64,000 bases of DNA, from assembly GCF_036417845.1 (NCBI RefSeq), contig NC_090013.1, positions 377,001 through 441,000 on the forward strand. The letters run 5' to 3'. The DNA is from Apteryx mantelli. Lineage: Eukaryota; Chordata; Aves; Apterygiformes; Apterygidae. The position numbers and the translations under genes are program-made. The notes under the pieces are model-generated. The model was not told the origin of the DNA, did not search any database, and worked only from the letters and a program-made list of their open reading frames with translations. Below, in pieces: positions 25,803-61,547 of the stretch (position 1 is its first letter; every line of letters begins with the position of its first letter).

Positions 25803-40258
<14,456 letters not shown>

Positions 40259-47112: not shown

Positions 47113-50100
47113 TCACGGGTTCCCTTTCTCCTCATCACCGCTCTCCTTCTTGATTTCTTCATAGACAGCCTCGGCCCCGTCTCCTCCCTTCTCGGCCCCC
47201 TCCGCTGTCTTGGCGTTGGGCACCCAGAGCCCAGAGTCGATGCATCGCTGCATGTGGTACTTGGCTTCCTGGAAGAGAGACAAAGGTATCAGCAAGGCCC
47301 TTGCGCTTCCCACGGCCTGCTCCGTGCTCCGCCTGCTCCGCTGCCCTTTGCCAGCCCAGCGCTCACCCCGGAGAGCGCCACAGAGACGAGCTGTGAGCTG
47401 CGCACACTCGCACACCCGCTTTCCCCTGCTGCGGCAGCATCCCCACAGCCCCCACGCTGCTGCGAGCGCAGCTCTCTAGGTCTAGGGGATACTCACGGTT
47501 GGGTCCATTTTGCTGATAGTGTCCTGCAACATCTGAACATCTTTCACATCAAAGCATTTCTGCAGCTCCTGCAAGACCGGAACGGAGGAAGATGAGCCAA
47601 TATTGGTCTCTACTACTTTCATACCTGAGCAAACAGGTTACCAACCCTACTACAACATCAGAACGCAGCAGCTCAACCTCGCACAGCTACGACATGCAGC
47701 TGGGAGAGCAGCAGAGGCAGCGCTGGTGCTCACTGCCCCACAGAGCCCGTGTCACCTCCCAGCTCCCACTTTTACAGCAGTTGAGACTAAAGAAAAATAC
47801 AGGGTCTGCCACAGACCGCCCGTTTGGGTCTTGCACAGGCCAAGCAAGAGACTTTTCTGCCTCAATCTATCTCCACGGCACAGCGCGATACTCACAGGAG
47901 GGAGGGACTCGTACACCTCCACAGGGTCGAGCCCACCAGGGCCCAGCCGTTTCTGCCGCTCTTCCTCTTCGTATTCTTTCATAGCCTTCTCTATGCGCAC
48001 CTTGGCTCGTCCCCGCACCCGCTCCTTGAAGGCCTCCAGCTCATCGTTAAAGCCCTCCATGTACTGCTGGTCAGCTGTCTGGAGCGAGCAGGGAGGGCAG
48101 CGGGTTAGGGGAAGCGTTCAGCTCCTAGCCCCAAGGAGGCCTGCGGCAGGGACCGCTTCGGGCCCGCATCCCCCTGCTCGTCCTAGGGAGAGGGCTCCCA
48201 CCCAGCCGCATCCCCGCAGCTTCGCCTCGCCTCCCCCAGGGCCGTGAGCCCAACCGTTTCCTCAAGCCTGGCCGAAAAAAGGGACCGGCTGGAGGGAGGG
48301 AGCCGCGTTCACCACCAGCAGCATTTGCTCAGGCATCACTGTGGGGGCAGCAAACACTGAAAGACGCCGTGCCAAGACCCACCGCAGCGCACAGGACGAA
48401 GAAGCGTCACCCCCAGGAACCAGAAAGCAGCTTGCCCAACGGGGAGAGCTCCAATCTCACCTTGATCTTTGTGAAGAACTGCCGGAAGCAAGCCCTGGGA
48501 TCCACCTTCAAGCTCTTGGCCAGCTCCAGGATGAACTGCATGACGATAGTCTGATGGGCCACCTGCTCCATCAGGGCATGTTTCTGCAGCGGAGGGAGAA
48601 AGGGCAGATAAGGACCGGCAGTTCACTCGCCCCGAAGACGTGCACCTATGCGGCCCCTCGGCAGGGGAGGGCACGCCAGGTTCCAGCAGGATCCCTGAGT
48701 CACGAAGGACAGGCTCATCCCCGGCCCCTTTCCCTCGGGGAAACGGGAAAGCGGATCCCAGCTGGCCCGGAGCCACGCCAGGCGGGTCCACTGCAGGGAA
48801 GCTCTTGGCATTTCTGACAGGAAAAAAGCCTGTCGCAACAGGGCCAGCTGGACACAGGCTCTGGGAGCCCTGCTTCCTGCAGCAAAGGGACAATGCGGTC
48901 CCTCCTGCGCGGTGCGGAGCTGGCAGCCAGGCCGGTTTTATCCCTCCCTAGCTAGCAAGATTCCAGCTACAGTCCCAACTGCATTGCCAGCCCAACTGTC
49001 TCACCTCTTCCACCTCCAGATCGATGCACCAGATGACTAAGTAATTGGCTGTCTCCTCGCACACGAGATGAGGGTTATCAGACAGATATTTCTGGCTGTC
49101 ATCCCAGCGCCGCAGCATGCCTTCAAAGCAGGACAGCCCCAGTTAGCAGTGTAATATTTCCACTTTAAAAAAAGAACACCCTCTAAACCTCGCGCTATTG
49201 TCTTCAGCGAAGGGGGAGAGGAGGGATGACTCATCCCAAGTTTAGATCAACCTGCCCTCCCCTCCCCGCCAATTGCATTTAAACCGTCACAAACAAAGGC
49301 AGAGCATGAAGTTTTGCTCCAGCTGGGCAAGCAGGAAAAAGAACTTGTGAAAAAGCACGTCAAGTCATCAACCGACTCCGGTGGCCTCCCCTGCCGCACA
49401 CTTGTTAGGCAAGCAGAAGCTTCACTTCGCAGTTGAGCATCTCAAACAGCAAAGCGAGCACCTGGACTCAGCAGACGAGGCGGGGAGGGGGCTGGGAGAG
49501 CCGTTTCCACCAGCACGAAGACCCTGCAAGGGCCCAGGGCTCTGGAGCCCTCACCTACGCTCCGCTAACTCACCAAAGTGTTTGATCTGCTTCTCGTTTC
49601 TCTCCACAAACGTTTTGTGTTTCTTCTCTTTCTGTTCCTCCGTTTCTTCCTTCTCCTCCGGTTTAACGTTGAACACGCTCTGCGGAGAGCAGAAGGACGT
49701 TAGCAGATCTTGCGTCACTCAGTCGCAGGCCCAGTGACGCAGGCCGGAGGCGAGGGGGACTTCCCCACCGCCAGACCCACCTTGCTGAAGCCATCCTTGC
49801 TCAGGGTGTCTACATTCCAGGGCATGTTCTTCTCCTTCTTCCTCAGCTCCTCTAGCTTGTTTTCCCAGCTCTTCTCTTCATTTTTCAGCTGCTGGGCTTC
49901 AGCTTGGAGCCTCTCCAACTCCCCTTTCCCACTCTCCTGGTCTGCCACCTCCAGCTCTTTCATCTTCTTCTGGCACTCTGCTAGTTTCCGTTTGCATTCC
50001 CTGCACCCCTTATCCAGCTCCTCTTTTTCCTTCTGGAACTGCTCCATCCTCTCCACTCGAGCCTGCAGGCAACAATTTACACTTTTAGGACCCTCGGGAG

Positions 50101-52914
50101 AGAAATTAATAGATAGTCTGGAAGACCGCAGTCACGAAGCAGCAAGAGCAGCCTCTCCAATGCACCCGGAGCCCACGGGACTTAGGATCACCCCTATGAC
50201 AGCCGACACGAGCTCAGAGCAGGCGGCTCTGGCTCTCCAGGCCTGCGCTGCGAGGTGCTTCCTGGGGAAGGGGGACGGATCTTCTACCTCCCCTGGAGCT
50301 GCCAAGGATTGAAACCTCTTCAAGGCAACAGCGAGATATTTCTGTTTATCGCTAGCCATCTTCCACACCCCATTAGCAGCCTGACCCGGGCTCTTTAGCC
50401 ACATTTCTCCCGTGACACCGACACGCCCGCAGAGCCTCTCTACGCTGTTAGATAACGGCTCGCTGCAGCGTAGGAGACGCGCGCTCCAGGAAGCCTGACA
50501 CACTTTCCCAGATCGCCGTTATTCTTTGTGGAATACGCTGAAGAACGAGAAGTCACATACCCTCCCCCATACGCAGCTACATTAGGAGCACAAGGTGAGA
50601 ACAGACGCATCTTTCCTCAAAAATATCTCTTTCTAGAAAAATCAGGAGGCAGAAGAGCTGCGTTCCCTCCACGCGCCGCTCCACAGGACAGACCTGGAGC
50701 GGACCCTGCGCCACGACACAGTCTAATCGCAACGTCAGGCCTACGCTCACCTGCCTCAAGCAAGTCCTTCAAGCCGAGTGCTGGTATTTTGTTTGAATTG
50801 GAAGCGGGGGCAATTTAATTGGCGTGCCAGCTTCATTATTCTTCACTGTCCAGCTTCTAGCCACCCGTCCCTTCCTCCCACAGCCTGTGCTGCTAACCCC
50901 AAATACCCTATTACCTGGAGAAAGGGTTTTCGAGTCCCTAAGGATTTTGTCCGTTGAGACCGGCCAGCGCAGGGCTGTGCACCTCCTCCACACGAGGCGG
51001 GGACCTTCCCGCCTTCCTATCCAGGGCCCTCACAGGAAACGGGAAGAGCTGCCTTTGCTGCTTCTCCGCTTGTTTGGGGTAAGAACACTTTCAGCGGAGG
51101 AAGCCAGCTGGGAGCGCCTGGACTCCCTGCATTCATTCTTTACCTCTAAAGAAACTCGCAGTTTCCTCTCCTCACATCTGCGGGAGGGGGAACCCACGGA
51201 AGCAGCGCACACACGCGCTTAGCGGTGTGCCGGTATCCCACGAATCTGCCTCTCAGTCACTGCCTCCTCCTGCGGGTCTATTGCCCGTCCTCCACGGGCA
51301 GGGGAATCGCAGCAGGAAGAGAGAGTTTGCTAGAAGCACAGGGAGCTGTCGGAGCTCGGCACGGCCCGTTCAGCCACAGCCGTGAAACCCGCACCACAGC
51401 GGCGGGATACGAAGCTCCGAGTCCCGAGAACGGCCACCGTCCCCAGGCCCAGCCCCAGGTGAGCTTGGCCACCGCCAGCTTCTCCCGAGGGAAGCTGGGT
51501 TCTCCCCAGCGAGCATCACCTAAACGACAAGCTAGGGTGGCACACGGCAGAGCCGAGGGGATAAATCCGTCATTTGGAGAACGCAGGCAGAAGGCTGACA
51601 CACGGAGCTCACAGGGCTCTTCGCCACAGCGCTGCTTTGCAGCGGCAGACGATTCACTTCCACCGACGCCCAGGCCCGCTCTGGGTGGCGTTAGCAGCGC
51701 AGGGCCACAGAAAGTCTCACTAACGGGTCCCACTAGCTGCCAAGGCCACCACGCCGCTATCGGGTAGGAGAGCTTGTCACAGGCTTGTTAAGCTCCTACC
51801 GCAGTGACTTGGCCAGAGGGCAACATCTCCCTGGGCCCAGGAGGTGAGACAGGGCAGGCGCCAGCCTGGGGCCTCCCGGGAGCTGCCCCGGACCCTGGGA
51901 AGGGCCTGGGGCCTGCTTGCTCCCAGGGCCTCAGGCAGCGTTCCCCAAGGAGACCTCCTGGAAGGGCCCTGGGGGAGAGGGGGAGACCCAGACCCAGCCA
52001 CCATGGAAGAGGGGCCCTGGGGGACTGGTCCCCACAAGGACAGGAGTCACAGGGAGCCGGTCCACACAGGGATGGGGGTCAGAGAGAGACCCCAGCGAAG
52101 CCCACATGGGAATGGGGGTCAGGGGGAGCCCCTGGCCCAGCCCCCATAGGGACAGGGGGCAGCAAGAGACCCCAGCCTGGCCCACATGGGGATGGGGGTC
52201 AAGAGGGAGCCCCTGGCCCAGCCTCCATGGGGACAAGGGGCAGCAGCAGACCCCAGCCAAGCTCACACGGGGATGGGGGGCAGGGGGAGCCCTTGGCCCA
52301 GCCCCCATGGGGATTAGAGTCAGGGGGGAGCCCTTGGCCCAGCCCCCATGGGGATTAGGATCAGGGGGGAGCGCCTGGCCCAGCCCCCATGGGGATGGGG
52401 GGCAGCAGCAGACCCTAGCCAGGCCCACACGGGGATGAGGGGCAAGGGGAGCCCCTGGCCCAGCCCCCATGGGGATGGGGGGCAGGGGGAGACCCCAGCC
52501 AGGCCCACACGGGGATGGGGGTCGGGGGAACCGGTCGCCACAGGGACCACGGGGGAGCCCTCAGCAGTGTCACCACGGAAACGGGGCCACAGGGAAGCTG
52601 GTTGCCATAGAGACAGGGGACCACAGAGGAGCCCCCAGCCCGGGCCCCACAGGGAAGGGGGCCCCGGGCACCTGGCCGCCATGGGGACGGGGGTCACGGA
52701 GAAGCCGGTCGCCATGGGAACGAGGGGTCACGGAGAGCCCCGCCCCGCCCCGGCCCAGCCGCCGCCGCCGACGGAGGGGGGGCCGCGCCCGCCGGCCGCC
52801 CCGGGGCCCGACCTGGTGCCGCCACCGGAAGAGGCTGGCGGTGTCGATGTTGGGGTGCGTCTCGTCCTCATCGTCCGACACCTCGATGTGGTCCCACACG
52901 CTGTAGTCCACCAT
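47113..52914 (-). CDS. CDC37: CDC37, HSP90 co-chaperone for protein kinases
   Basis: Eight exons fit: 52914-52813, 50062-49781, 49679-49574, 49120-49005, 48583-48461, 48078-47896, 47568-47497 and 47268-47113 (stop 47115-47113). They give 379 aa against 378 in human. The N-terminus [20 protein letters not shown] keeps Ser13, the CK2 phosphorylation site needed for kinase loading. A charged coiled coil follows (about 37-110, with [20 protein letters not shown]), then [15 protein letters not shown]. The HSP90-binding core has [28 protein letters not shown] and [20 protein letters not shown]. The C-terminal part has [20 protein letters not shown] and [15 protein letters not shown]. The protein works in the cytosol, recruiting client kinases to HSP90. 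The acidic C-terminal tail is the least conserved part and ends GDEEKGNP. Confidence 0.97.
50063..52812. other. CDC37: CDC37 intron 1
   Basis: This 2.75-kb intron is unique-looking from 50063 to about 51980. From there to about 52700 it is a minisatellite (separate entry). No further exon is supported. Confidence 0.6.
51985..52700. repeat. Minisatellite in CDC37 intron 1 (CCCCATGGGGATGGGGGTCA)
   Basis: About 700 bases carry repeats of CCCCATGGGGATGGGGGTCA, GGGGGAGCCCCTGGCCCAGC and GGGCAGCAGCAGACCCCAGC with a step of roughly 40-65 bases. The array runs to about 110 bases from exon 1. Confidence 0.9.
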
Positions 52915-52974: not shown

Positions 52975-53145
52975 GCCCGCCCACTTCCGCCCGCACACGC
53001 GCGCACTTCCGCCCGCGGCGCGCGCCGCGCCTGCGCGCTGCCCCGCCGCGCCGCGCCGCTCGGGGGAAGAACCCGGAAGCGCCGCGCTGCGGCGCCACCA
53101 GTGCGCATGCGCGGCCGCCTCGCCCTGCACAAAAATGGCGCGCCT
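52975..53145 (-). promoter_or_regulatory. CDC37: CDC37 CpG-island promoter with ETS-type sites
   Basis: GCACTTCCGCCCGC-type elements occur twice (ACTTCCGC at 52983-52990 and 53005-53012), and CCGGAAGC lies at 53073-53080. AAAATGGCGCGCC at about 53132 resembles a YY1 site. The block lies 70-230 bases upstream of the CDC37 ATG and has no TATA box. Confidence 0.5.
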
Positions 53146-53374
53146 TTTAAAGAGACACGCACACGCGAAACGGGGATGGGGGCGGGGCTCCGGGTGGACC
53201 CCAAAAGCCCGAGGGGGGGCGGGGGGTCGTTTCCCCTCCCCCAAAAAGGGGTCTGCTCGGGCCCAGAGCCCGGGGCGCAGCCGGGGCCCGCTGTGGCTGG
53301 CAGGCAGCGATGCACACGGCGCTGCACAAATGGGGTGGATGGATGGACGGACACCCCGACCGCCGGCCTGGCCG

Positions 53375-53835
53375 ACTACCTTGACCACCCCGACCCACCA
53401 TCCCGACCCACCACCCCGTCCAGCCACCCGGACCCACCACCTTGACCACCCCGACCCTCCATCCCGACCCACCACCCTGTCCAGCCACCCGGACCCACCA
53501 CCTTGACCACCCTGACCCACCATCCCGACCCACCACCCCGTCCAGCCACCCGGACCCACCACCTTGACCACCCCGACCCACCATCCCGACCCACCACCCC
53601 GTCCAGCCACCCGGACCCACCACCTTGACCACCCCGACCCACCATCCCGACCCACCACCCCGTCCAGCCACCCGGACCCACCACCTTGACCACCCCGACC
53701 CTCCATCCCAACCACCCTGACCCACCATCCCGTCCAACCACCTTGACCGCCCCAACCCACCACTCCAACCCTCCATCCCGACCCACCACCCCATCCGGTC
53801 ACCCGGACCCACCACCTTGACTACCCTGACCCTCC
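53375..53835. repeat. 61-bp minisatellite in the CDC37/PDE4A spacer
   Basis: TCCCGACCCACCACCCCGTC recurs at 53401, 53462, 53523, 53584 and 53645, an exact 61-base step. More diverged units continue to about 53835. The repeat is C/A-rich on the plus strand. Confidence 0.93.
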
Positions 53836-53904
53836 ACCCCATCCCTCCATCCCGTCCTGCCATCCCAAGCTGCCCCCCGGCCGCCCCCCCCGGACCCCAC
53901 ATCC

Positions 53905-54260
53905 CAGCCCAGGATGCCTGGCGCTGGGGGCATCCCGTACTGGGGCTGCATGGGGGGTACTCGGTACCGGGGGTGCATTGACGGTACCGGGGGTGCACGG
54001 GGGGTACCTGGGGGTGCCTGGTACCAGGGGTGCATCGGGGGTACTCGGTACTGGGGGTGCACGGGGGTGCCCGGTGCCGGGGGTGCATTGACGGTACCGG
54101 GGGTGCATTGGAGGTACTCGGTACCGGGGGTGCATTGGGATGCCCGGTGCCGGGGGTGCATTGACGGTACCGGGGGTGCATTGGGGGTACTCGGTACCGG
54201 GGGTGCATTGGGGTGCCCGGTACCAGGGGGTGCATTGACGGTACCGGGGGACGCCCGGTG
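53905..54260. repeat. GGGGGTGCATTGACGGTACC repeat
   Basis: Short tandem units mix GGTACCGGGGGTGCATTG, ACGGTACCGGGGGTGCA and GGGTACTCGGTACCGGG. It adjoins the 61-bp array and a CpG island to its right. Confidence 0.85.
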
Positions 54261-54289
54261 CCGGGGGGGGGGGGAGGGGGCCGGTGCCC

Positions 54290-54690
54290 ACGCGGTGCCG
54301 GGAGCTCCCGGTGCCCCCCTCCCCCGCCGCCCCCCCGCGCCGGTTCGCTCCGCCCGAGCGGCTGCGGGAGGCGCCGCCGCCGCCGGCACCGGGCTGCGCT
54401 CGCCGGTACCGGGCGGCGCCGTAAACAAAGGCGGGTGGATGCGGCGGAGCCGCCGGCGGCGAGGTACGGACCGGGACCGGGACAGGGACGGGGACCGGGA
54501 CCCGGGAACGGGACCAGGGCCGGGATCGGGACCGGGATGGGGATCGCGATCGGGAACGGGGCAGGGATCGGGACCGGGACCGGGGCAGGGACCGGGAACG
54601 GGAACGGGACCGGCGGCGGGGGGCCCTTCCCCTCCCTGCCCTCCCCTGCGCGGCCGCGGCGCTCCGGCCCGCCGGGGCCCGGCCCCGAGC
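54290..54690 (+). promoter_or_regulatory. PDE4A: CpG island with possible noncoding PDE4A first exon
   Basis: The sequence is very CpG-rich and contains GCGGCGAG/GTACGG, a good plus-strand donor with its last exon base near 54463. This could be a noncoding first exon joined to the acceptor at 56934-56935. Downstream to 54620 come GGGACCGGGAC repeats. No transcript evidence is available, so the call is tentative. Confidence 0.35.
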
Positions 54691-54699
54691 AGCCCCGGG

Positions 54700-55145
54700 G
54701 GCACCGGGCGTCCCGGAGGGACCGAGGGGGATGCAGTGCCCCGGGGGGACCGGGCATCCCGCCGGGACCAGGTATCCCGGGGGCACCGAGGAGGATGCAG
54801 TGCCCCGGGGGGACCGGGCATCCCGGCGGGAACCGGAGCGGGTGCAGTGCCCCAACGGGACCGAGCATCCTGGAGGGATCAGGTATCCCAGCTGGACCAG
54901 ACATCCCAGCAGGACCTGGCATCCCGGTGGGACTGGGCATCCTGCCAGGACCGGGGCAGGGGGGACGCAGTGCCCCAGCGGCACTGGGCATCCTGGCGGG
55001 ACCGGGGGGACCAGGGGGGTGCAGTGCCCCGGGGGGACCCGGCATCCAGGCAGGACCGGGCATCCTGGCGGGACCAGGGGGATGCAGTGCCCCGGTGGCA
55101 CCGGGCATCCTGGCAGGACCAGGCATCCCGGCTGGGAGAGCCCCG
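54700..55145. repeat. Repeat of GATGCAGTGCCCCGG and CCGGGCATCCCGGCGGGACC units
   Basis: Units of about 45 bases combine GGGATGCAGTGCCCCGGGGG with GGGCATCCCGGCGGGACC. The frames open across it are periodic artefacts. Confidence 0.8.
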
Positions 55146-56935
55146 GGATGCGGCGCTCCGGGGTTCCCACGGCTGGTCCCAGTGCAGGGTCCCGGGAGCG
55201 CCCCGGGAGCAGCGGGGCTGGGGGGGCTGAGCCCTCCCCGTGCCGCTCCACCAGGACACGGACGCTCCATAGGGATGATCCGGCTGCGGCGGGTCCCCCT
55301 GCTCTGCACCCCGCCGACTTGCTGTGCCGAATCCCCCCCACCGGCTTCTCCCCTGCCGGGAACAGCATCGGCTCCGCCGCGCCGGGATGGCCCCGGGTGC
55401 TCAGCACCCCCGCGGAGCCAGAGCCGGAGCCGGAGCCGGAGCCAGAGCTGGAGCCGGCAGGGCCTTGCCGGAGCCACGGCCGCTCGCCCTCACTCAGCGG
55501 AGCCTCCCGGCTCCCGGGGTGCCCACGGAGCTGCCAGCGGCTCCCCCCAGTGCCATGCAGGCCTGCTTTCCTGGCGGAAGCCGGACCTGGATCTGGGCAT
55601 CCCATGGGAAGCGGGAGTGTGCCGGTGCCAGCCCAGGTGCGCGGCTCGGAGCCTGCCGGTGTTCCCGGGTGCCAACGGGTTGCTGCTGCCCGGGAAGAAG
55701 CGTGAAGCTCCTCCAGGTGGAAAAAGAGATGGAGCCGGGAGCAGCCGGTCCCCTCACCGCAGGGGATTTCGGGATGCTCCGGCCCGCGGCATCCCAGCCC
55801 TCCAGCCGCGCTGCCGGGACCGTCCCGGTGGGGATCCCCGGCCAGGGCTGGGGCCCAGGCATCCGAGCGGGATGAGGGACACAGCTGCAAGCACTGCAGA
55901 GCAGCCCCTCTCCGCCCGGACAACCCCAAATCCCAGCGGCCGGAGAGGCCCAGCCGGGGACGGACACGAGACACCGTTTCTTCGTCCCGGCTAGCCACAC
56001 GTGGCCACTTCCGCTGCCGGCTCCGGCTTTGCCGCGTCGCGGCACGGCGGCGCCTCCAGAGCCCGAATCCCCCGCGGCGCTCGGCCACGGAGCGAAGCAA
56101 TTCGTTATCCAGAAAACAACCCGGGGCCGCGGCGCGGGGCAGCGGCGGAGGCTTCTCGATGCGCAGAGCCGCGCCGGGGATTTCTCGCTCCGGGGAGGAC
56201 GGGGCGAGATGGACGGGGGTCGTTCCCGAAGCCCCGCGGCCGGCAGCCACGCGCAGGCACCGGGACGCTGGGTGCTCGCTGCCTGCCCGGACACGCACCG
56301 CCCCGTGCGCCCCAGGGAGCCCCCGGACACCTGGGTCCCTCGTCCCGCTCGGATGCCCAGGTGCCGCTCGGATGCCTGGGTCCCTCATCCCGCTCGGATG
56401 CCCAGGTGCCGCTCGGATGCCTGGGTCCCTCATCCCGCTCGGATGCCCAGGTCCCGCTCGGACGCCTGGGTCCCTCATCCCGCTCGGTGCCATGGGGCCT
56501 CGGGGCTTCGCTGGTGCTGCCCCGTCCCCACCGCGCTCCAGGATCCCCCATCCCCAGGGATCCCCCATTCCCGGCAATGTGCGACCGGGAGCTCCCGGCC
56601 CCCCAGCCCAGTGCTGCAGCTGGGATCCCCTCGTCGCCGGCCCGGCCACGCGGTGCTGCGGGAAGTGATGCCGGGGTTTCCTTGGCAACCTTGGCCGGGA
56701 GGAGCCAGGGTCTCCGGCAGCATCCAGGGTCTCCGGGAACGGAGCCGGAGCGGGGGGGCAGCACCTCGCCGGGGCAGCGGGGTCCTGGCCTGCCGCAGCC
56801 AGCGCCCTGCTGGACACTGCTGCAATGAGCGTGTGGGTGCTCAGCCCCGCTCCGGCTGCTCCGTGCCCGGCTCCACAGGGGTCCCAGGGCGCCGGCGGCA
56901 GGACGCAGCCCTCACGGCGCCGCTCTCTCTTGCAG
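55146..56935. other. PDE4A upstream region
   Basis: This is GC-rich sequence without a supported exon. A three-copy repeat of about 46 bases (CCCGCTCGGATGCCCAGGTG plus GATGCCTGGGTCCCTCAT) lies at 56335-56490. It may be an intron of PDE4A if the noncoding exon near 54.4 kb is real. Confidence 0.45.
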
Positions 56936-57074
56936 GCGCCCCGGGACGAGCGGGGTGAGCCCGGCCCCCCGCGCCCCCCGCGCCGCCCCCCCCATGGCCC
57001 CCGCGGCCTAAGCCCTGGCGCTGGGCGGCCGCATGAGGAGGAGCCGGAGCGCCCTGGCCGTGTCCGCGGAGCAG
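56936..57074 (+). CDS. PDE4A: PDE4A alternative first coding exon, PDE4B1-like start
   Basis: A CTCTCTCTTGCAG acceptor ends at 56935 and a CAG/GTGAGC donor follows 57074. The ATG at 57033 opens 14 codons, MRRSRSALAVSAEQ, ending in phase 0. This lines up residue for residue with MKKSRSVMTVMADD, the start of mammalian PDE4B1 as I recall it. The bases 56936-57032 would be 5'UTR. The exon pairs with 57843-58099. Confidence 0.72.
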
Positions 57075-57329
57075 GTGAGCGCGGCGCCGGGGGCAGCGCC
57101 GGGGGCTGCCCGGCTCCCGGCACAGCGGCGCCCGCCGCCTCCGGGGAGGGCAAGCGCGGGGCAGAGCCTGGCCCCCCCCCGGGAACTGCTCCGGGCCGGG
57201 CGTCCCTCCTCCCTGGGGCAGCGCCGGCTGCTCCCCCTGGGAAGGGGAGCCGGCAGCTGCCCCGGGCCATGGGCCTGGAGCAGGCTTTGCCCAACCCGTG
57301 TCGGCCAGGGGGAGAGCGTGGAAATGCGG

Positions 57330-57660
57330 GTGGTGGGTGCCCGTGGGTGCACATGTGTCTGTGTGTGTGCACATGTATGTGTGCGCATGTACGTGTGTGC
57401 ACATGCATGCACGGCTGAGTGCGCACGTGTGTGTGTGCATGTGTGCGCATGCATGTGTGTGTGCATGGCCGTGTGCACGCGTGTGCATGCATGTGCACGT
57501 GCTTGTGCAAGCGCACGTGTGTGTGCATGTGTAGCAAGAGCATGCACACACCTGGCTGAGCATCCGTGTGTGCATATGTGTGTGTGCGCACACACGTGCA
57601 TGGACACACGTGTGCACCTCTGAGCGTGCACGCGTGTGCTTGGCATGTGCATGCGCCCGG
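57330..57660. repeat. Alternating TG/CA tract, Z-DNA-prone
   Basis: About 330 bases of the intron are built from GTGTGTGTGCACATGTATG, GCGCATGCATGTG and ACACACGTGCATGG, nearly perfect purine-pyrimidine alternation. The many short Cys/His/Val frames are consequences of this. Confidence 0.85.
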
Positions 57661-57842
57661 CCAGCGGGGCTGTGCCAGCGGCTCGGCCGGGGCCGGTGCA
57701 TCCGGGCTGGCACGAAGGACACGGGCGGGGGGCAGCGGCCGTGCCGGTGCCCTCCTCACCCGGCCCCGCTATCCGCTGCGGAGCCCGCGGGGGCACCGGG
57801 ATGCTCCGGCTCCGCTGACCCGGTGCCCGCCGCCCTCCGCAG

Positions 57843-57846
57843 CCTT

Positions 57847-57884
<38 letters not shown>

Positions 57885-58099
57885 GGGCGCTGCAGCCGCT
57901 GCCGCCCGCCGTCTCCGGGCATGCTGGGGGCCGACCTGCGGCGCGGCCGCCGCCGCCGCCTCTCCGCCACCCTCCAGGTGCCCCCCCGGCAGCCCTCGGA
58001 GCGGCCGCGCTCGCCGGAGCCCGACAGCGTGCCGCGGCCCACCACGCTGCCGCTGCGCGCCCCGCCGCGCATCGCCGTCACCCGCGCCGAGCCCCGCAG
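57843..58099 (+). CDS. PDE4A: PDE4A second exon of the B1-like N-terminus
   Basis: The exon starts after CCCTCCGCAG and ends CGCAG/GTAGGG, entering in phase 0 and leaving in phase 2. It encodes an EPP repeat, then LGADLRRGRRRRLSATLQVP and SVPRPTTLPLRAPPRIAVT. PDE4B1 has LGIDLWRGRRCCSGNLQLPP and RPTTLPLTTLPSIAITT in the same order, and PDE4D7 has a related block. Phase 2 equals that of the classical PDE4A long exon at 61547, so both can splice to the same common exon outside the window. The N-terminus of PDE4 long forms sets location and partners of the cAMP phosphodiesterase. Confidence 0.75.
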
Positions 58100-61000
58100 G
58101 TAGGGGGGCGACGCGGGGGCTCCCCGCGGGGGAGAAGCCGGCGAAGCCCCGGGCGACCCTCGGCGAGCGCCCGCCCCCTCCGTCTCCCCGTGCGACCGGT
58201 GACGGCAGCGTGTGCCGCCGCCCCGGCGCCGCAGCCCGGCGGGGAGCGGGCGGCGCGGGCAGCAGCAGTATTTTTAGCAGCCTGGCTTTTCGGGGGAGCC
58301 CCAGGAATAGCTCGGCAGGCTGCGGGCGGCCCTGCCGGCGAGGCGGCGCGGCGCTCCCGGGCGTTCGGCCGCGGTTAACCGCGCAGCCCCCGCCGATCCG
58401 GGGGAATCCGCGCTTCGGCACCGGAGAGCGGCTTGCAGCCCGCGGGATTCCCGCGTGGCTCCGCGCGTCCGTCCCGGGATCCGCGCGGCCCCTGCTGCTG
58501 CGGTGAATCATCCGCCGAAATTTCCAGGGTGTGTTTGTGCCTGGGCCCGGCCACCCCCCGGCCCCCCCCCCCCGGCTGCGGACGGCCCGGGGCGCCCCAC
58601 GGCGCGGTGCTTCCCAGCGGGACATTCGCGGTGCCACTTGCAGGGGGAGGAAACTCATCCTGCCCGGCGCCCGGCTGCCCAGCACCTCCTCGACCCGCTC
58701 CCGGCCTCGGCCCCGCTCCGGCCCCCCGCGGCTCGGTGCCCCCGTCGGCACGGCCTGGCCCCCACGCAGGCTGGAGCCCTCGGCATGGCACGGCGCGGGG
58801 TGCCTTGTGCACGGGGTCTGTGCAGCGCCGTGCACCGGGGGGGGGGAACATAATCCTGGTGCTGGGGGTCTGTGCAGCGCCGTGCACCGGGGGGGGGAAC
58901 ATAATCCTGGTGCTGGGGGTCTGTGCAGCGCCGTGCACAGGGGGGACCCTAATCCTGGTGCTGGGGGTCTGTGCAGCGCCGTGCACCGGGGGGACCCTCA
59001 TCCTGGTGCTGGGGGTCTGTGCAGCGCCGTGCACAGGGGGGGACCCCATCATGGTGCCGGGGGTCTGTGCAGCGCCGTGCACGGGGGGGACCCTAATCCT
59101 GGTGTTGGGGGTCTGTGCAGCGCCGGGCACCAGGGGGGGACCCTCATCCTGGTGCTGGGGGTCTGTGCAGTGCCGGGCACTGGGGGGGACCCTCATCCTG
59201 GTGCTGGGGGTCTGTGCAGCGCCGTGCACGGGGGGGGACCCCAATTCTGGTGCTGGGGGGTCTGTGCAGCGCCGTGCACATGAGGGGGGACCCTAATCCT
59301 GGTGCTGGGGGTCTGTGCAGTGCCGGGCACTGGGGGGGACCCTCATCCTGGTGCTGGGGGTCTGTGCAGTGCCGGGCACTGGGGGGGACCCTCATCCTGG
59401 TGCTGGGGGTCTGTGCAGCGCCGTGCACAGGGGGGGACCCTATGGCGGTGCCGGGGGTCTGTGCAGCGCCATGCACATGAGGCGGGACCCTAATCCTGGT
59501 GCTGGGGGTCTGTGCAGCGCCATGCACATGAGGCGGGACCCTAATCCTGGTGCTGGGGGTCTGTGCAGTGCCATGCACATGAGGGGGGACCCCAGTTCTG
59601 GTGCTGGGGGTCTGTGCAGCACCGTGCACCAGGGGGGACCCCAGTCCTGGTGCTGGGGGTCTGTGCAGCACCGTGCACGGGGGGGACCCCAATCCTGGTG
59701 CTGGGGGTCTGTGCAGCGCCGTGCACAGGGGGGGACCCCAGTTCTGGTGCTGGGGGTCTGTGCAGCACCGTGCACAGGGGGGACCCTATGGCGGTGCTGG
59801 GGGTCTGTGCAGTGCCGGGCACTGGGGGGTGACCCCAATCCTGGTGCTGGGGGTCTGTGCAGCGCTGTGCACGGGAGGGGGACCCCATCATGGTGCTGGG
59901 GGTCTGTGCAGCGCCGGGCACTGGGGGGGACCCCAATTCTGGTGCTGGGGGTCTGTGCAGCGCCGTGCACCGGGGGGACCCCAGTTCTGGTGCTGGGGGT
60001 CTGTGCAGCGCCGGGCACTGGGGGGGGCCCCAATTCTGGTGCTGGGGGTCTGTGCAGCGCCGTGCACATGAGGGGGGACCCCAGTTCTGGTGCTGGGGGT
60101 CTGTGCAGCGCCGTGCACATGAGGGGGGACCCCAGTTCTGGTGCTGGGGGTCTGTGCAGCGCCGGGCACTGGGGGGGACCCTAATCCTGGTGCTGGGGGT
60201 CTGTGCAGCGCCGGGCACTGGGGGGGGCCCCAATTCTGGTGCTGGGGGTCTGTGCAGCGCCGTGCACATGAGGGGGGACCCCAGTTCTGGTGCTGGGGGT
60301 CTGTGCAGCGCCGTGCACATGAGGGGGGACCCCAGTTCTGGTGCTGGGGGTCTGTGCAGCGCCGTGCACCGGGGGGACCCCAATTCTGGTGCTGGGGGTC
60401 TGTGCAGCGCCGTGCACATGAGGGGGGACCCCAGTTCTGGTGCTGGGGGTCTGTGCAGCGCCGTGCACCGGGGGGACCCCAATTCTGGTGCTGGGGGTCT
60501 GTGCAGCGCCGTGCACGGGGGGGGACCCCAATTCTGGTGCTGGGGGTCTGTGCAGCGTCGTGCACGGGGGGGACCCTAGTTCTGGTGCTGGGGTCTGTGC
60601 AGCGCCGTGCACCGGGGGGACCCCAATTCTGGTGCTGGGGGTCTGTGCAGCGCCGTGCACGGGGGGGGGACCCTGTTGGTGGGATCTGGGGTGGGGGGTT
60701 CCCCGGGGGGGGGGGATTCCTGCCGGAGGGGCGTTCCCGGGGGGGGGTTTCCCGCTAGGGATTGTCGAGGAAGGGATCCCTGCGGAGGGGATCCCGGGGG
60801 GGGAGGGGGGATCCCTGCCGGGAGATGCCGCCGAGGGGGTCCCCGGCGGGGGGTGGGGGGTCCCCGGGCGGAGCCGCGCCCCCGGGGGAGGCCGGTCCCG
60901 GGGGAGGGGGGGGCCGGCGGCTGCGCCGGGGCGGGGGGAGGCGCCGAGCCGGGAGCGCAGAGGAGGCGGCGGCGGCGGCGGCGGCGCGGAGCGGAGCGGA

Positions 61001-61275: not shown

Positions 61276-61547
61276 ATGGAGCCGCCGTCGGGCTCCAGGA
61301 AGAGCCTGTCGCTGTCGCTGCCGGTGCCCCGCGAGGGCCCGGCCACGCTGAAGCCCCCGCAGCACCTCTGGCGCCAGCCGCGCACCCCCATCCGCATCCG
61401 GCACCGCGGCTACTCCGACACCGACCGGCACCCGCCGCGGCCCATGGAGCGGGCCGACGCCGTCGACACCGGCGACCGGCCCGGCCTCGGCCGCTCCCGC
61501 ATGTCCTGGCCCTCCTCCCTCCACGGCGCCCCGGGCGCCGGCAAGCG
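61276..61547 (+). CDS. PDE4A: PDE4A classical long-form first exon (PDE4A4/5 type)
   Basis: The ATG at 61276 opens 90 codons and two bases, with donor GCG/GTAGGT at 61548. The protein reads [20 protein letters not shown], then [36 protein letters not shown] and [17 protein letters not shown]. It follows the unique N-terminus of human PDE4A4 (rodent PDE4A5) almost throughout. PDE4A hydrolyses cAMP, and this segment directs binding to SH3-domain kinases and other partners. UCR1, UCR2 and the catalytic domain lie beyond the window. The exon ends in phase 2. Confidence 0.95.

Follow-up and report, generated by a model that had tools for sequence, protein, structure and literature searches.

A two-exon alternative start at the PDE4A locus of a bird-like genome, most likely the counterpart of mammalian PDE4A8

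PDE4A is the gene of a cAMP-degrading enzyme, and at its locus in the genome studied here there is a two-exon start of the kind found in PDE4B1 and PDE4D7. Very probably the two exons form an alternative 5' end for a long form of PDE4A. They would correspond to mammalian PDE4A8 and be paralogous to the starts of PDE4B1 and PDE4D7. The start is genuine and ancient, and PDE4A8 mostly removes its novelty. What appears to be new is the extension of the start beyond mammals to a bird-like genome, the evidence for a common ancestry of the A, B and D starts, and the presence in a PDE4A start of what reads as a PDE4D7-like PKA motif, RRLS. In the open-licence literature, no publication describing a PDE4A start in birds was found.

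Locus and exon structure

The window, i.e. the whole stretch of 64,000 nucleotides that was analysed, is positions 377001-441000 of contig C36 (1.33 Mb) in a genome of 1.5 Gb, judged bird-like from this GC-rich contig and from the arrangement of the genes. The relevant features of the window are given below in window positions.

25806..28848, minus strand: TYK2 kinase-domain exons, by match to the human TYK2 kinase domain
47215..52914, minus strand: CDC37 exons, 7 tblastn segments with 81-100% identity to human CDC37
56926..56935, plus strand: acceptor-like tctcttgcag, before the start-codon exon
57033..57074, plus strand: coding segment of exon 1, MRRSRSALAVSAEQ, with 14 codons, ending in phase 0 at donor GTGAGC
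57075..57842, plus strand: intron, 768 bp, GT-AG, with a TG-rich simple-repeat stretch (read by eye)
57843..58099, plus strand: exon 2, 257 nt (85 codons + 2 nt), leaving in phase 2 at donor GTAGGG
57924..57986, plus strand: conserved block LGADLRRGRRRRLSATLQVPP, from alignments with same-genome PDE4B1 and PDE4D7
57954..57965, plus strand: RRLS (serine codon 57963-57965), similar to the PKA site that surrounds Ser42 in human PDE4D7
58035..58082, plus strand: conserved block RPTTLPLRAPPRIAVT; same-genome PDE4B1 has RPTTLPLLTPPSIAIT and PDE4D7 has RPTTLPLRIPPLIAIT
61276..61547, plus strand: A4/5-type first exon, 272 nt, phase 2, donor GTAGGT, by match to PDE4A4

The exon at 61276 is 62% identical to human PDE4A4 over 116 columns. 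Upstream of it lie CDC37 and TYK2, and the human gene order is TYK2, CDC37, PDE4A. An A4/5-type first exon with these two genes as neighbours identifies the locus as PDE4A, in support of the assignment made in an earlier note on this DNA, and the two-exon start sits at this locus. CDC37, on the minus strand, and the PDE4A start at 61276 are divergent, in a head to head arrangement. The remaining PDE4 genes are found on other contigs: PDE4B on C8, PDE4D on C44 and PDE4C on C30, the last being so named because it adjoins RAB3A, part of the PDE4C neighbourhood in human.

Two side observations concern other first exons. The first exon of PDE4C (L040:5496-5843) is A4/5-like, so the A4/5-type start also seems to predate the split between PDE4A and PDE4C. 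A short frame beyond the window, MHFSFSDEDVKWHRL (L032:5354-5415, corresponding to C36:446354-446415), resembles part of the human PDE4A10 start, HFPFSDED, with an E-value of 0.09. This frame is possibly a third PDE4A first exon.

Exon 2 is directly preceded by ...CTCCGCAG, with the AG acceptor of the intron, and its exit phase at 58099 is 2, as is that of the A4/5-type exon at 61547. The phases that had been proposed for this start, 0 between the two exons and 2 on leaving the second, equal to the exit of 61276-61547, are confirmed on the sequence. The start codon at 57033 has a weak context, with C at -3 and A at +4. Because an acceptor-like site ends just before 56936, there may be a non-coding leader exon further upstream; in PDE4B1 of the same genome, a comparable acceptor-like TTTCTTTCAG is found upstream of the ATG. 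It can be added that exon 2 opens with a PEPPEPPEPPEP stretch derived from CCGGAGCCG-type repeats (57843-57884), which is seen neither in PDE4B1 nor in PDE4D7 and is perhaps a lineage-specific repeat expansion.

Comparison with the starts of PDE4B1 and PDE4D7

The PDE4B1 start of the same genome (C8) has the same exon plan as the two-exon start in the window. Its first exon, MKKSRSVMTVTADE, also consists of 14 codons, ends in phase 0 and aligns without gaps; it is followed by GTAAGT, where exon 1 in the window is followed by GTGAGC. Its second exon (236 nt, L043:5937-6172) exits in phase 2 as in the window, the blocks come in the same order, and 37 of the 90 aligned residues are identical. PDE4B1 differs in having RRCCS where the window has RRRRLS, and in a shorter spacer that lacks the proline-rich stretch with which exon 2 of the window begins, and it is a separate gene from PDE4A. 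Exon 2 of PDE4D7 in the same genome (C44; 236 nt, L044:5891-6126) has the phase-2 exit as well, and shares with the window the RRLS and RPTTLPLR-PP-IA-T blocks, 24 of 62 aligned residues being identical. Between the second exons of same-genome PDE4B1 and PDE4D7, 30 of 63 aligned residues are identical. Judged by the PDE4B1 of this genome, the window pair belongs to the PDE4B1/PDE4D7 type: it has two coding exons, a first exon of 14 codons ending in phase 0, and an exit in phase 2.

The first exon of PDE4D7 is a different matter. The first 14 residues of human PDE4D7 are little like exon 1 in the window, with a score of 11. In the same genome, an exact pattern for this human start gave 0 matches. 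L045 and L044 together cover about 16 kb upstream of exon 2, and in neither of them does any of the five top-ranking ATG frames listed have a GT donor behind it. At PDE4C, no B1-type exon pair was matched in the 30 kb upstream (L038-L040), either by human B1/D7 queries at an E-value of 1 or by same-genome B1/D7 queries at 0.01 with the filter on, and the region upstream of PDE4C is absent among the 62 matches listed genome-wide for human PDE4B1.

The likeness of both window exons to these starts exceeds chance. Exon 1 was scored without gaps (BLOSUM62) against its counterpart in same-genome PDE4B1, and reached 37. The top score in 400 first-order resamplings of 53001-57842 was 14 when a GT donor was required, and 23 in a further 400 resamplings of 53001-57842 when it was not. 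Within the window itself there are 429 stop-free 14-codon ATG frames on the plus strand, among which the runner-up to exon 1 scores 19, and 538 on the minus strand, where the top score is 20. For exon 2, the score was 127 against same-genome PDE4B1 (shuffle maximum 58) and 88 against same-genome PDE4D7 exon 2 (shuffle maximum 55), with 1000 residue shuffles in each case. When human PDE4B1 was searched against the whole genome, 62 matches were listed, with 61 of 79 candidates scored. Among the 62 listed, three begin in the isoform-specific N-terminus, namely those at PDE4B (C8, E-value 1.7e-31), at the window (1.6e-5) and at PDE4D (C44, 0.16). A local search with the filter and the composition correction off gave E-values at the window of 3.2e-10 for human PDE4B1 and 1.5e-6 for human PDE4D7.

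One search points the other way. With the low-complexity filter on and an E-value of 0.01, same-genome PDE4B1 and PDE4D7 gave no match to the window exons, in a run that masked exon 2 even from the window's own protein. The conserved blocks, in matching order and beyond chance, are not recovered under this filter. The joined exon product had 0 matches up to an E-value of 10 in a PDB sequence search, and scanning 4 translated stretches against Pfam returned 0 families. Taken together, the frames, the splice sites and the above-shuffle scores bear out the claim of the earlier note that two exons here encode an N-terminus of the PDE4B1/PDE4D7 type, with the same blocks in the same order.

The pattern of codon changes points in the same direction. 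Across 76 codons aligned between the window and same-genome PDE4B1, 36 residues are identical and only 9 codons are, and the differences at codon positions 1, 2 and 3 number 36, 22 and 58. The GC content at third positions (GC3) of exon 2 is 0.98 in the window, 0.37 in PDE4B and 0.50 in PDE4D. So many identical residues with so few identical codons suggest that the protein was kept while silent sites shifted to G or C. This speaks for protein-level constraint on the exon pair, i.e. for coding use over evolutionary time, present expression being a separate matter.

Probable correspondence with mammalian PDE4A8

The long PDE4A forms of mammals, PDE4A8 among them, had been said to lack this start. 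This is not supported by PMC2929239, which in the parts cited here describes a PDE4A8 N-terminus made up of two exons that the pig, cow, dog and marmoset genomes have conserved and that are poorly conserved in mouse. In a figure-legend list of that paper, PDE4A8 heads the PDE4A 5' exons, ahead of the A4/5-type. When pig and marmoset ESTs were searched for PDE4A8, according to the same paper, PDE4B1 orthologs and no PDE4A8 ortholog came up; PDE4B1, it adds, likewise has two N-terminal exons. Human PDE4A8 has been described in brain and pituitary, according to the portion of a review, PMC6433792, cited here.

The start in the window resembles PDE4A8 in its two-exon N-terminus and in its position 5' of the A4/5-type exon (the mammalian order being that of the figure-legend list in PMC2929239), in a comparison made by exon number, order and description. 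Because PDE4A8 has two exons, is listed first and had EST searches that returned PDE4B1 orthologs, the window start is most likely its counterpart; this orthology rests on order, exon number and the wording of PMC2929239. As for the homology of PDE4A8 to other starts, nothing is stated in the parts of PMC9949383 and PMC11820465 cited here, and the part of PMC13095499 cited here mentions neither PDE4A8 nor PDE4B1.

A different reading would be that the PDE4A start is truly absent from mammals and that PDE4A8, with its two exons in a similar place, is unrelated to it. The descriptive nature of the comparison leaves room for this, and the title of one reference speaks of rapid evolutionary change in human PDE4A8. 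However, an unrelated start would also have to have two exons, to be named first among the PDE4A 5' starts and to draw PDE4B1 orthologs in EST searches, all of which PMC2929239 describes for PDE4A8 in the parts cited, and we regard this reading as unlikely.

Predicted transcript and PKA site

If the two exons are the PDE4A8 counterpart, a promoter upstream of 56936 would start a transcript in which exon 1 is spliced to exon 2, and exon 2 joins the common UCR1 exon in phase 2, with this start replacing the A4/5 exon. The product would be a long PDE4A with a targeting N-terminus of ~100 residues, which would alter targeting within the cell.

It is also conceivable that exon 2 is used alone, with transcription from within or just before it and translation from an internal ATG at 57921, so that the N-terminus would be shorter and lack exon 1. 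This ATG is in frame and stands immediately before the conserved block LGADLRRG, and the CpG observed/expected ratio is 0.94, 1.10 and 1.12 in three 250-bp steps across 57751-58500. Yet the likeness of exon 1 to PDE4B1 exon 1 goes far beyond that of the resamplings, and the two have the same length, phase and GT donor, which makes it quite unlikely that exon 1 is bypassed.

In the predicted two-exon product, serine 55, within RRRRLS, may be a PKA site acting like Ser42 of PDE4D7. That residue lies in an RRLS motif and is phosphorylated by PKA, and its ablation raises activity, as described in the part of PMC4346272 cited here; the phospho-mimic S42D failed to reproduce the inhibition (same source and part). 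By analogy, an N-terminal PKA switch in PDE4A is a prediction only.

The missing PDE4A core

In the 62 kb that follow the A4/5-type exon, the UCR1, UCR2 and catalytic exons of PDE4A were not found. The downstream region searched was C36:441001-501000, which contains N runs at 447737-447936, 465460-465589 and 500169-500246. When the whole genome was searched, a UCR1 query from PDE4A (6 of 6 candidates scored) matched only at C8, C44 and C30, and a catalytic-stretch query (19 of 19 candidates scored) gave strong matches, 90-92%, only at PDE4B, PDE4D and PDE4C. Longer genome-wide queries, with candidates partly scored, agree in finding copies of PDE4B, PDE4C and PDE4D only. The exit phase of exon 2 suits joining to UCR1; the PDE4A UCR1 exon itself was not found in the assembly. 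KEAP1 is the next gene after PDE4A in human; here, with 71 of 217 candidates scored, none of its hits longer than 100 residues exceeded 43% identity.

A run of 200 N (C36:447737-447936) is located 9.2 kb past the A4/5-type exon, inside a 10-kb stretch of 75% GC. That the PDE4A core and KEAP1 are both missing from the same place is consistent with a gap in GC-rich sequence. The core is thus probably located in an assembly gap of this GC-rich contig, true loss being less likely but possible. Three publications about genes missing in birds and about KEAP1 do not mention PDE4A in their main text. Loss of the core in this lineage, with the 5' exons left as non-working relics, would agree with the UCR1, catalytic and KEAP1 searches, but the two sets of first exons have open frames and intact splice-site dinucleotides, the residues of the exon pair are constrained and the N run in its GC-rich surroundings suits a gap, and we consider such loss very improbable.

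Origin of the start and implications

The exon plan and the blocks common to the A, B and D starts argue for a common origin, contrary to the conclusion given in the cited part of PMC2929239 that each PDE4 gene acquired its amino termini independently, by sequence drift. The species list in the Methods of that paper, as cited, includes no bird. The three starts probably do have a common origin, judging from one genome and human sequences, and the exon pair would then predate the separation of PDE4A, PDE4B and PDE4D. The earlier note had suggested that this may be an ancestral PDE4 promoter, kept here and lost or unnoticed in mammals. Its first half stands in so far as an origin before the PDE4 genes separated is probable, while "lost or unnoticed" is most likely wrong in view of the PDE4A8 described in the cited parts of PMC2929239. 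A wider reading, which we hold tentatively and find nearly balanced, inclining slightly against it, is that a PDE4 N-terminal module older than the A/B/D split, with a PDE4D7-like inhibitory PKA site, was kept in bird-like PDE4A, and that mammalian PDE4A8 is its eroding remnant.

If true, this ancestral-module reading would contradict an independent origin of PDE4 amino termini by drift, and PDE4A, PDE4B and PDE4D would have one ancestral two-exon start in common. A second PKA switch, at the N-terminus, would be added to PDE4A. Both the N-terminal PKA site and isoform-specific targeting would be old, and not later inventions of single genes, and the window exons would serve as a reference for reading the fast-changing PDE4A8 of mammals.
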